IMG/VR virus record: IMGVR_UViG_3300046007_010240
Location: 1-23,557 of that record
Strand: one strand, 5' to 3'
Length of the DNA stretch: 23,557 nucleotides
Source of the DNA: a virus
Shown piece after piece: positions 9,193 through 20,866 of the stretch. A program made the translations under genes and the position numbers. Numbering within the stretch: the stretch's first letter is position 1; each line of letters starts with the position of its first letter. Below the pieces are notes generated by a model. The model ran no database searches, was not told the origin of the DNA, and saw only the letters and a program-made list of their open reading frames with translations.

Positions 9193-9371
9193 AGCGTTAA
9201 CCAGACAGCAAAGGACACCCAGATCACCACACCCACAGTCATGCCTGCGTAGATGAACAAGTTTTCACCAGAAGAGAGGGGTTTACCTTCGTCCATTGCA
9301 AGTCTGTGTGGGCAGGTGTCAGACTGGTTGCACCGCTGGTTACAGGGTGGGCAAGTGTTGCAGTCACTCAT
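9189..9371 (-). CDS. Small Cys-rich membrane protein
   Basis: 60 residues. The N-terminal 20 residues contain five cysteines (C-x2-C-x2-C-x3-C-x5-C), ending TCPHRLAMDEG, which could hold a metal. One C-terminal membrane segment covers about 37-59 (FIYAGMTVGVVIWVSFAVWL). Overlaps with both neighbours support it. Function unknown. Confidence 0.6.
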   Translation of the reverse strand: MSDCNTCPPCNQRCNQSDTCPHRLAMDEGKPLSSGENLFIYAGMTVGVVIWVSFAVWLTL

Positions 9372-10120
9372 GCTGCCTCCGCGTATTCAGATTGAGCCAT
9401 TTCGCAAAAGATGCCGCATTGGATTTCCGGTTCGTCTTGGTAGCGCCCAGTGCCCGTCTTGAGTTCATCCAGAAATATCCGGGTTGTCCCTTCGCGCACC
9501 ATGCGAACCCCTAGCGCACGGCTGGCACCCGCCATCATCCAGAACCTCTCTGGAAAATCAGCGCGAATCTTGTTCCAATAGCCGCTGCCAGTGGCCTTGA
9601 CGCAGCCGATACAGTTGTTGTGTTGGTAGCCAAGTTTGTACATAACGGGCAGTTCAATGTCCGCGTTTTGCAGCATCCCAAGACAGTCGGCATGTGACAA
9701 CTGGCGCTCGATCAGCGGCGATACGCAGTCGATGTTGTTGGCATCAAGGAAGCTGTCAAAGCGCTCTTGTTCCTCTGTGCAGTATCCAAACACATGCTTG
9801 TCATCTGGCAACTGGAACGCTTCACGGACGTGCTTTTTCAGAAGCATGGTGCAGGGCGCACCATTGATGCCGCTGATGTACTTACGCTTCGTGATGACGT
9901 TGTAAATGCTGCCGTCGTATTCTTCATTGATCAGGTTTGTGATTGGCATACCGAACCACGTTTCGCAGTCAGCCGCAAACCTGTCGTTGTCGGGGTGTTC
10001 TTCCTTGACAATGCAACGGGCAACGACGATCTCATGCGTCTTGCCGTACTGAGCTATTGCTAACTTGGCTGCAACAGCAGATGCCGCGCCACAGCTAAAC
10101 CAGCATACGAGGCGGTTCAT
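9368..10120 (-). CDS. PP-loop ATPase, PAPS-reductase-like (phage CysH/DndC relative)
   Basis: 250 residues from ATG 10120 (GAGAGG upstream); a frame extending to 10195 runs through the preceding small gene. WFSCGAASAVAAK at residues 7-19 is the ATP-binding PP-loop of the PAPS reductase/adenine-nucleotide alpha-hydrolase fold. The rest has conserved-looking CTEEQERF and NNCIGCVKATGSGYW (Cys170/Cys173), then a second Cys pair at 235 and 239, which could hold a metal or Fe-S cluster as in DndC-type proteins. In bacteria the family includes sulfate-activation reductases and DNA phosphorothioation proteins. In phages such genes are frequent and their substrates mostly unknown. No dnd partners lie nearby, so DNA modification is only a possibility. 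Confidence 0.75.
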   Translation of the reverse strand: MNRLVCWFSCGAASAVAAKLAIAQYGKTHEIVVARCIVKEEHPDNDRFAADCETWFGMPITNLINEEYDGSIYNVITKRKYISGINGAPCTMLLKKHVREAFQLPDDKHVFGYCTEEQERFDSFLDANNIDCVSPLIERQLSHADCLGMLQNADIELPVMYKLGYQHNNCIGCVKATGSGYWNKIRADFPERFWMMAGASRALGVRMVREGTTRIFLDELKTGTGRYQDEPEIQCGIFCEMAQSEYAEAA

Positions 10121-10242
10121 GCGATCCTCTCGATCATCCAAGCAAACACAAGCGACAAGCCAATCATTCCAAGCATTACGCCGACCAAGTTCCATAGCCA
10201 GTGCGGTTTATCTTCGTCGTAGACGTGTTTGTTTCTTAACAT
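10117..10242 (-). CDS. 41-residue single-pass membrane protein
   Basis: ATG 10242 has AAAGGAT seven bases upstream. A charged N-terminus (RNKHVYDEDKPHW) precedes one membrane segment at about 17-36 (WNLVGVMLGMIGLSLVFAWM), and the C-terminus is IERIA. The stop overlaps the PP-loop gene start (ATGA). Below usual gene-caller length, but the ribosome site and overlap support it. Confidence 0.6.
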   Translation of the reverse strand: MLRNKHVYDEDKPHWLWNLVGVMLGMIGLSLVFAWMIERIA

Positions 10243-18219: not shown

Positions 18220-18441
18220 ATGCAAAGAGGAATTGACACGGCTGTTGAAGCGGCCGGATCGCAGGGCAAGCTGGCGCAGCAATTGGGCGTGTCGCAGCAA
18301 GCCGTGGGCAAATGGGTAGAGCGCGGGTACACCCCGTTGCGCCGCGCGCAGGAAATCGAGGCAGTGTATGGTGTGCCCCGGGCGGCTTTGGCTAACCCAC
18401 GCATGTTGGAGCTACTGTCGGGTTGGGAAACGGCGATGTGA
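18220..18441 (+). CDS. Cro-like HTH protein (YdaS/Cro family)
   Basis: 73 residues from the last of three clustered starts (GTG 18214, ATG 18217, ATG 18220); only 18220 stands five bases after AGGAG. The protein is one compact helix-turn-helix: QGKLAQQLGVSQQAVGKWVE, then YTPLRRAQEIEAVYGVP. Its recognition stretch SQQAVGKW (25-32) is identical to that of the repressor, so the two should compete for the same operators. It is the first gene of the rightward replication operon and overlaps the primase-helicase by TGATG. Confidence 0.8.
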   Translation: MQRGIDTAVEAAGSQGKLAQQLGVSQQAVGKWVERGYTPLRRAQEIEAVYGVPRAALANPRMLELLSGWETAM

Positions 18442-20669
18442 TGGGCGCGCTCATGAACGCTCAAAAACCCAGCATCCAGCAGTTCGACGGTTCCGGTATC
18501 CCCGACGAACTCAAGGCGATGCGCCGATGGGCACCGTGGCAAGCCGTGTTCAACGCCAAGCGCGGCAAGTTTGACAAGCTGCCAAAAAGCGCCGTCCACC
18601 CTGAAATCGGCATCTCCACTGCCGCCCCGGAGAAGTGGTTCTCGCACAACGAAGCCCTGACCGCGTACATCAAAGCCAAGCAAATGCTCTCCGGCATCTG
18701 CTTCGTGATGACCGACATCGAAGGTGTCGTGGGCATCGACATGGACAACTGCATCGACGCAGACGGCACCGTGGCACCGTGGGCGCAAGAAGTGGTCAAC
18801 ACCGCCAACAGCTACACCGAAATCTCGCCCTCCGGGCGCGGCCTGCGCATCTTCGCGCTGGGCATGTCCGATGGCGGTGACTGGACGAACAACGCTGTGG
18901 GCATTGAGGTCTACGTGGGCAGCACGCCCCGGCACCTCACCGTCAGCGGCCGGGTGCTGCCGGGTGCGCCACGCAAGATTGCGCCAGTCACGCCCGGGTT
19001 TCTGGCCGGCTTGCGCGGCACCTACGGCCGTGCATCGTCGGTGGCGCAACTGGCTAAAAAAGACCTGCCACCCATGCCCGATGTGTTGGACGAAGCCCAT
19101 ACGCCGGCACTGGGGGACATTGAGTTGCCCCCGGCCGTGCGCGACTTCCTGTCAGATGGCGACACCACGGGGGACAGGTCGCGCGCGCTGCACAGCGCGG
19201 CCGTGTCGGTCTTGAGCGCGGGCTTGACCGCCCAGCAACTGCTGTCGGTGCTGGCGCACAACCACCACGCCCTTGAAGTGGCGCTGGATCACCGTCGCCA
19301 AGACTATGACAAGGCGCTGGCCTATCTGTGGGAACACCACTGCGTCAAAGCCGCGCCCAAGGCCCGCCCCAAGGCGCTCACCCAGGCTGACTTCGATGAC
19401 TTGAGCGAATCACTGGACGTGCCGGTGGACGCTGATGACGATGGGCTGGTGGCAGAGGGCGCGCCGGCCACCACAGACGGCGTTGCAGATGACTTCGATG
19501 ACGTGTCGGCTGGCGCGCCCAGCGCCCCACGGCCGACCGCGCCAAAACCCCCGCAGCACAAGTTCAAGATTTACTCTGCCAAAGACTACGTTGCCAACGT
19601 GCGCCGGCTGGACTGGTTCGTCAAGGGCGTGGTGCCCAAGGCTGAACTTGTGGCCGTGTTCGGCGCGTCGGGGTCGGGCAAAACCTTCATCACCCTCGAC
19701 ATCGCGTGCCGGGTGGCCTTGGGCCTGACGTGGTTCGGCATCCCGTGCCGCCAAGCCCGGGTGCTGTACATCGCGGCCGAGGGCGCGTCGGGGATGCGAG
19801 AACGCATGCAGGCTTGGTGCCAGCACAACGACGAAAGCATGGACGAACTGAGCGAATACCTGTACGTGCTTGGCGACCAACCCAACCTCACCGAGAAGGA
19901 TGACGTCAAGGCGCTGCTGGCCTCTATCCGAGGGCAATGCGCTGGTGTCGAGTTGGTGGTGGCCGACACGATGGCCCAAGTGACGCCCGGAGCCAACGAG
20001 AACAGCGGCGAGGACATGGGCCGCTTCCTCGGCTTCTGCAAGGCCATCGGCAAGGCGCTCACGGCCACCGTCGCTTTGGTAGGGCACTCTGGCAAGGACG
20101 CCGGCAAAGGGCTGCGGGGCTGGAGTGGCGTGAAGGGTGCCCTCGACGCCGAGTGCGAGGTGATCCGCACCAACGACTTCCGCGCGCTCGTTGTCACCAA
20201 ACTCAAGGACGGCAAGGGCGAAGGCAAGGAATACCGCTTCACGCTGCCCGAGGTGGTCATCGACTTTGATTCAGACGAAGGCATCGTGTCGAGCCTGGTG
20301 GCGCTGCACGGCGAGGTCTTTGAGGCGTCGGGCGCACGGGAAGTGGCGAGGGCAGAGGCTAAGGACACCGCAAAGAACAGCACACCAACCAAAGGCCGAC
20401 CAAAAGCCTTGCTGGAGTGGTTGCGGGAAGAGGCCAGGGCTGGGCGCAAGGAGTTTGCCTTGGGGGCTTTGAAGACCGAAGTAGCGGCGCTTTTCACCAG
20501 CAAGGGCATCTACACCAGCGGCCAATTGGCCGATGGCAAGGCCGCTGCGCTGGCGCTAGACGCGATTCGGGACTTGGAAAAGTACGGAGCGCTCAAAACG
20601 AACGGCGAAAAAGTGACGTTTACCGAAGGACAGGTTTCACCGACCGACGGGGGAACGAGTGATTTTTAG
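18441..20669 (+). CDS. Primase-helicase fusion (AEP primase-like + RepA-type AAA_25)
   Basis: 742 residues from ATG 18441. The N-terminus is archaeo-eukaryotic-primase-like: RRWAPWQAVFN, Asp100-x-Asp102 in GIDMDNC, and Ser131-Gly-Arg-Gly-Leu-Arg-Ile. A low-complexity Asp/Ala/Pro linker (about 310-375) leads to a RecA-fold hexameric helicase: Walker A GASGSGKT (408-415), LYIAAEGASGMRERMQAW, Walker B-like VELVVADTMAQ, and GHSGKDAGKGLRGWSGVKGA. The last 110 residues form a winged-helix-like tail (ALKTEVAALFTSKGI). It likely primes and unwinds at the adjacent iteron cluster. Catalytic completeness of the primase part is uncertain, because motif III is not clear. Confidence 0.85.
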   Translation: MGALMNAQKPSIQQFDGSGIPDELKAMRRWAPWQAVFNAKRGKFDKLPKSAVHPEIGISTAAPEKWFSHNEALTAYIKAKQMLSGICFVMTDIEGVVGIDMDNCIDADGTVAPWAQEVVNTANSYTEISPSGRGLRIFALGMSDGGDWTNNAVGIEVYVGSTPRHLTVSGRVLPGAPRKIAPVTPGFLAGLRGTYGRASSVAQLAKKDLPPMPDVLDEAHTPALGDIELPPAVRDFLSDGDTTGDRSRALHSAAVSVLSAGLTAQQLLSVLAHNHHALEVALDHRRQDYDKALAYLWEHHCVKAAPKARPKALTQADFDDLSESLDVPVDADDDGLVAEGAPATTDGVADDFDDVSAGAPSAPRPTAPKPPQHKFKIYSAKDYVANVRRLDWFVKGVVPKAELVAVFGASGSGKTFITLDIACRVALGLTWFGIPCRQARVLYIAAEGASGMRERMQAWCQHNDESMDELSEYLYVLGDQPNLTEKDDVKALLASIRGQCAGVELVVADTMAQVTPGANENSGEDMGRFLGFCKAIGKALTATVALVGHSGKDAGKGLRGWSGVKGALDAECEVIRTNDFRALVVTKLKDGKGEGKEYRFTLPEVVIDFDSDEGIVSSLVALHGEVFEASGAREVARAEAKDTAKNSTPTKGRPKALLEWLREEARAGRKEFALGALKTEVAALFTSKGIYTSGQLADGKAAALALDAIRDLEKYGALKTNGEKVTFTEGQVSPTDGGTSDF

Positions 20670-20679
20670 CCCGTTCGTC

Positions 20680-20799
20680 AATTCCTCCAACTCCAACATC
20701 CTCCAACGTTGGAGTCCTGTTGGAGAAACACCATCCTCCAACACACCTACATCTCCAGATGGAGGTGTTGGAGGTAGATGTTGGAGGAATTATCTTGGA
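20680..20799. repeat. Nested palindromes and TCCAAC/GTTGGA iterons: candidate replication origin
   Basis: Eight exact half-repeats in 100 bases: TCCAAC at 20686, 20692, 20702 and 20737; GTTGGA at 20708, 20719, 20767 and 20780. They are arranged in nested symmetry: an outer 12-base pair (AATTCCTCCAAC at 20680-20691, GTTGGAGGAATT at 20780-20791), a perfect 14-base palindrome (20701-20714), and a 10-base pair (CCTCCAACAC at 20735-20744, GTGTTGGAGG at 20765-20774) whose 20-base loop contains CTCCAGATGGAG. The cluster follows the primase-helicase stop. It is otherwise non-coding, with no T-run. Confidence 0.7.
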
Positions 20800-20806
20800 G
20801 AAAAAC

Positions 20807-20866
20807 ATGAATGAGCGATTTTTTGCCAATTCAGCAAATTTCAAACAATGGGTGAAAAACGCATGA
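20807..20866 (+). CDS. Possible 19-residue leader ORF
   Basis: ATG 20807 with TTGGAG eight bases upstream, running 19 codons (MNERFFANSANFKQWVKNA) to a TGA that overlaps the next start. It would couple translation from the iteron leader into the following gene. Supported only by the ribosome site and overlap. Confidence 0.4.
   Translation: MNERFFANSANFKQWVKNA

Follow-up and report, generated by a model that had tools for sequence, protein, structure and literature searches.

A two-way array of 7-bp words behind a phage primase-helicase gene as a probable replication origin, with word and helicase winged helix co-varying among relatives

What does a cluster of short inverted words do directly behind the primase-helicase gene of a phage, and which part of which protein would read it? 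The question arises in the window, by which we mean the whole stretch of DNA that was analyzed, a viral record of 23,557 nt (23.6 kb). Its genes include those for a tail fibre, an endolysin, a spanin, an integrase, a DNA polymerase, a helicase and an exonuclease, with a repressor-like and a Cro-like gene just upstream of the primase-helicase; the source of the window is a temperate tailed phage. A preliminary description of the sequence had offered two answers, an origin of replication or a structured RNA.

Computationally, the array spans positions 20685-20786 and consists of eight exact copies of a 7-bp unit, CTCCAAC or its complement GTTGGAG, four in each orientation (Table 1). The 6-bp words within them, TCCAAC and GTTGGA, start at 20686, 20692, 20702 and 20737 on the forward strand and at 20708, 20719, 20767 and 20780 on the reverse strand; two further copies of the 7-bp unit, at 20758-20764 and 20794-20800, carry one mismatch each. 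The eight exact TCCAAC/GTTGGA units of the preliminary description are all present, the true repeated unit being 7 bp, and its three nested inverted repeats are all exact: an outer 12-bp pair (20680-20691 with 20780-20791), an inner 10-bp pair (20735-20744 with 20765-20774) and a perfect 14-bp palindrome at 20701-20714. The array begins 16 bp past the helicase stop, so its placement directly behind the primase-helicase stands, but the gene start given at 18441 is an internal ATG of a frame that opens at TTG 18423 and ends at 20669.

An array score, in which one 6-mer is counted in both orientations within 150 bp, reaches 11.0 for the array, whereas 1000 shuffles of the region by a first-order Markov model gave 5.5 at most. 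A whole-window scan found no second array of the kind that phage P4 has in crr, all other positions scoring 5.0 or less, and TCCAAC matches number 20 in the window versus 13 expected, with 8 of the 20 inside the array, so that the word is not enriched elsewhere. The alpha protein of phage P4, with its ori and crr sites, is a primase-helicase that binds short repeats, as is proposed here for the window module, and differs from that module in its helicase family and layout. Cumulative GC skew, uninformative in a fragment of only 23.6 kb, has no clear turning point.

The two groups of iterons are parted by a hairpin of approximately 16 bp with a GC stem, and AT-rich stretches lie outside the array. 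The hairpin at 20743-20768 occupies the position of a CCCTTTAGGG/CCCTATAGGG-type hairpin in relatives. The flanking direct repeats, GATTTTTAGCC and GATTTTTTGCC, are similar to the GCAAATTTTTAC-type stretches that surround many of the related arrays. These AT-rich repeats could possibly be unwinding elements.

Table 1. Positions of the gene, its proposed reading domain, the words and the flanking repeats in the window
Feature	Positions	Strand	Basis
Primase-helicase gene, 748 aa: NrS-1-type PrimPol N-terminus, RSF1010-RepA-like hexameric helicase core (AAA_25), C-terminal winged helix	18423..20669	+	
C-terminal winged-helix domain, ~residues 656-733, proposed word-reading domain	20389..20621	+	Predicted topology, divergence
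Left AT-rich flanking repeat (GATTTTTAGCC...), 76% identical to its partner at 20809-20837	20653..20681	+	
Module 1: three CTCCAAC, the third forming with the first GTTGGAG the 14-bp palindrome (20701-20714)	20685..20714	+	
Module 1, second inverted word GTTGGAG	20719..20725	-	
Module 2, forward word CTCCAAC	20736..20742	+	
Module 2, central hairpin ACACCTACATCT/AGATGGAGGTGT, 92% complementary	20743..20768	no strand	
Module 2, inverted words 20767-20773 and 20780-20786	20767..20786	-	
Degenerate inverted word CTTGGAG, one mismatch	20794..20800	-	
Right AT-rich flanking repeat (GATTTTTTGCC)	20809..20837	+	

The only Pfam family found in the primase-helicase is AAA_25 (E=1e-36), and its profile matches are to structures of the NrS-1 primase and RSF1010 RepA; the RepA-related RecA-fold core (PDB 1g8y/1nlf) is recovered both by profile and by fold (AlphaFold model, Foldseek). 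A Rep_3-type iteron-plasmid initiator was also considered and ruled out, Pfam returning AAA_25 only and the units being 7 bp long in both directions rather than long and in one direction. Alignment of the C-terminal part against PDB sequences gave no significant match. Its predicted topology is that of a winged helix, with helices at residues 661-672, 684-693 and 707-720 followed by strands at 724-727 and 730-733, at a moderate pLDDT of ~48-66; the predicted recognition helix comprises residues ~707-720 (20541-20582).

A scan of viral contigs and bacterial genomes collected 403 helicase loci, of which 202 are distinct and 196 have at least 300 bp of downstream sequence. A one-word, two-orientation array with a score of at least 7 lies downstream in 153 of these 196 distinct relatives, where the null maximum is 5-5.5; nine others score 5.5-6.5 and 34 score lower, some of the 34 having a displaced array. 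No array was found right behind the gene in 28 relatives with enough sequence, four of which had an array that was displaced or that overlapped the gene end. Clear arrays are present in named phages (Roseobacter phage CRP-821, Rhizobium phage 16-3 and Salicola phage CGphi29) and in plasmids of Methylobacterium, M. currus among them (pMRAD08 and unnamed4), and of Caenibius (p1), and a Klebsiella element has a weaker one. The array rule is not universal among RepA-helicase phages, because Caulobacter phage GB2A and Mycobacterium phage Rich have no array by the same score.

Displaced arrays start 338-445 bp past the stop at eight loci (L039, L051, L061, L065, L034, L044, L075 and L076), at +1001 at L512 and at +1721 at L253; the sequence between the helicase stop and these arrays probably consists of small genes. 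Further, locus L003 has two successive CTCCAAC arrays, 226-257 and 346-461 bp past the helicase stop, which suggests an origin duplication.

Across 67 clusters of relatives, a common layout emerges. The array sets on within -30 to +60 bp of the helicase stop in 53 of the 67, with a median of 25 bp past it; the spacing of same-direction copies is mostly 7-11 bp, with 9 and 10 commonest, or about one turn of DNA; and the distance from the last forward to the first inverted copy is usually 14-17 bp and forms a hairpin that most often has CTTTAG or CTATAG at its centre and is often CCCTTTAGGG-like. The flanks of the arrays are AT-richer than their surroundings, at ~58% versus ~41% AT. The window has the same layout with a degenerate centre. 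What changes is the word: there are ~49 different six-mers across the relatives, a count that splits some register variants of one word, and they include TGCTTCA, TGCAACA, TGGATCA, TGCACCA, TGCCACA and TCCCACA as well as GCTCCATT, TGTTCCAGA, TTCACG, CTGTCC and TGTCTC. The expectation in the preliminary description that half-sites would be conserved while spacers vary is therefore reversed, as layout and hairpin are kept and the word turns over with the C-terminal domain of the helicase.

This pattern bears on two alternatives. Short nested palindromes look like REP elements, and the array might be taken for a mobile palindromic repeat (REP/MITE-like) that is functionless here; however, a position and layout that are kept while the sequence is not are the opposite of a spreading repeat, the window holds a single array, and the co-variation of word and winged helix contradicts this explanation, which we consider hardly credible. 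A structured RNA, whether leader, attenuator or terminator, in the transcript behind the helicase gene would fit the nested hairpins into which the strand folds, and stems kept through a complete change of word resemble covariation. Nevertheless, the transcribed strand folds no better than its complement (mean difference of +0.6 kcal/mol, p=0.22, 67 clusters) and the window has no Rfam match above the gathering score, and on these two results the structured RNA was rejected. It would also leave unexplained the direct repetition of one word and the tie to the winged helix, and the array persists despite 300-1700 bp inserted before it; we regard an RNA element as very improbable. Thus, the origin part of the earlier proposal gains support from the comparison with hundreds of relatives, whereas its RNA part fails for want of a folding strand bias or an Rfam match and because the array survives inserted genes.

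Which part of the protein would read the word is indicated by natural domain swaps. Over residues 1-650, the window protein and that of locus L002 mostly share 78-92% identity, with two bins at 56-66%, but identity falls to 14-34% across the C-terminal domain. The word of the window is CTCCAAC and that of L002 is CCCGTAAC; the winged helix is the only part of the protein that diverges along with the word in this pair. The window and L003 proteins are about half identical throughout, yet they have C-terminal features and the word CTCCAAC in common. Similarly, L022 and L032 have motors that are 94% identical, C-termini that are 27% identical, and the words TGGATC and GCTTCC. In 154 arrays, the more alike the C-termini are, the more alike are the words, also when motor identity is controlled (partial r of 0.52, 0 of 500 permutations), and the reverse test, of word against motor with the C-terminus controlled, gives a weak partial r of 0.12. 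In these alignments, the word follows the C-terminal winged helix of the helicase and not its motor, and this co-variation is the basis on which the C-terminal domain would set iteron specificity.

Alternatively, the PrimPol domain could be the reader of an initiation site. The N-terminal domain resembles NrS-1; the NrS-1 phage primase-polymerase has a homologous PrimPol domain in a primase-helicase fusion, and it needs an 8-nt template sequence for priming (PMC7102993). NrS-1 differs, though, in its superfamily III helicase domain and in having its 8-nt priming sequence in two copies, with no iteron array described; moreover, PrimPol and motor remain ~80-90% identical between the window and L002 while the word changes, and once the motor is controlled for, it is the winged helix that the word follows. 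Reading by the PrimPol domain in place of the winged helix accordingly appears most unlikely.

In the large D-X-R clade, the co-variation can be followed to single residues. The domain is a predicted winged helix there too, with X at the start of a recognition helix at 67-80. Among words that contain TGC, residue X corresponds to base 4 of TGCN, with Q paired to T in 33/33, T, L or M to A in 18/18 and R to C in 4/4; the code agrees in 14/14 independent lineages, defined by collapsing loci whose motors are >60% identical (1 in 200000 permutations). The pairing of Q with T is seen both in betaproteobacterial phages and in an alphaproteobacterial prophage (L089). In sequences not used to derive the code, T goes with A in 10/10 and R with C in 1/1, and a His three residues past the motif Arg goes with C at base 5 in 6/6, other residues going with A. 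In the D-X-R clade, the word follows the winged helix so closely that two amino acids predict two of its letters. The code is not universal, because one sub-clade (L028/L042) combines RDQR with TGTTCC and because RDNR occurs with both bases, in L512 (TGCAAT) and L006 (TGCTCC). The window sub-clade (the window, L002 and L003) is without the D-X-R motif, and only the contrast among these three bears on that sub-clade.

Modules of this kind are known from satellites. In SaPI Rep and SCCmec Cch2, the C-terminal domain reads iterons downstream of the protein's own gene (PMC7581432), and plasmid maintenance required both rep and ori in the case of EcCICFT073, a PICI of E. coli (PMC6092414). The PICI/SaPI modules (SaPIbov1, EcCICFT073) resemble the window in that an initiator helicase gene is directly followed by a short-iteron origin, and they resemble the window family in that a C-terminal domain reads the iterons and different elements use different words. 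The site reported as the EcCICFT073 origin (PMC6092414) has 11 GGTAGA copies, which lie in both orientations as in the window; iterons of mixed orientation behind an initiator gene are consequently not unusual, contrary to what was first supposed. In contrast, PICIs and SaPIs are satellites, and the window, with its genes for a tail fibre, an endolysin, a spanin, an integrase and a DNA polymerase, belongs to a temperate tailed phage; the annotation of the EcCICFT073 gene is DNA primase family protein and not helicase RepA family, whereas the window has an RSF1010-RepA-type helicase; and two iteron sets flank an AT-rich stretch in PICI/SaPI, whereas the window iterons lie within ~100 bp around a hairpin. 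SCCmec Cch2 (AAGTG iterons), whose C-terminal domain likewise binds short repeats lying behind its own gene, differs in having a D5/Primase_Cterm-type helicase, in requiring only direct repeats and in that no word turnover is described (PMC7581432). The best reading by this analogy is that the window module works like the PICI/SaPI rep-ori modules but is not one of them.

Overall, the analogy with PICI/SaPI and the co-variation of word and winged helix suggest that the array is the phage's replication origin, bound by a self-loading primase-helicase, a reading to which we assign a probability of roughly 0.86. The same code, being one of co-variation only, is silent on what binding achieves, and the array could be a set of operators at which the helicase or a partner acts mainly on the transcription of neighbouring genes rather than on the start of replication. 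That the protein reading the word combines a PrimPol with a hexameric helicase, that SaPI and PICI modules have a tested origin at the equivalent place (PMC6092414, PMC7581432), and that the arrays are symmetric and AT-flanked all make operators unlikely.

For the origin, we infer by analogy direct binding, hexamer loading, melting and bidirectional replication. In particular, the C-terminal winged helix of the primase-helicase would bind the 7-bp words, and copies about one helical turn apart would place several subunits side by side; oppositely oriented groups of words around the small hairpin may then assemble two hexamers facing opposite ways, after which ATP-driven unwinding and PrimPol priming would start replication. 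The word could change freely provided that the winged helix changes along with the array, and each phage would have a private address for its origin.

A precedent for such exchange comes from ICP1, whose nuclease Odn copies the DNA-binding domain of an initiator, cuts the cognate origins and has been proposed to drive replicon exchange (PMC8263062). In the Vibrio PLE RepA/ICP1 Odn system, as in the window family, the DNA-binding domain of the initiator and the origin iterons exchange together (PMC8263062); its iterons, however, are semi-palindromic and ~30 bp long, its replicon alleles are few rather than tens of words in one layout, and its initiator is different. By this precedent, an origin-cutting nuclease may be the cause of the word changes, or alternatively they may avoid cross-talk with related phages in the same cell. 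More tentatively, and with the odds somewhat against it, this large family of phage initiators may carry a natural, largely predictable code from winged helix to DNA, in which an origin turns over when all copies of its word change in step with two or three residues of the recognition helix. Superinfecting relatives, satellites or origin-cutting nucleases would supply the pressure, and the addresses would make up an open-ended specificity system.

For a group of phages and phage-plasmids that is widespread and largely uncharacterised, the reading supplies a candidate origin with its initiator. The rep-ori layout has been reported as unique to PICIs (PMC6092414); it is shared by phages with another helicase family. 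The ~49 words, the natural domain swaps and a two-position code that holds outside its derivation set make a concerted change of initiator and iteron specificity directly testable, and the data set could yield many orthogonal origin/initiator pairs.

Two observations concern neighbouring genes. E. coli phage-satellite-like islands (L412, L424 and E. coli genomes) have a DUF4222 gene followed by a gene annotated either 'helicase RepA family' or 'DNA primase family', an exchange of whole replication modules. The early region of the window contains a phosphoadenosine phosphosulfate reductase-like gene (9368-10195, reverse strand), and Roseobacter phage CRP-821 (L416) has a gene of similar annotation close to its helicase.
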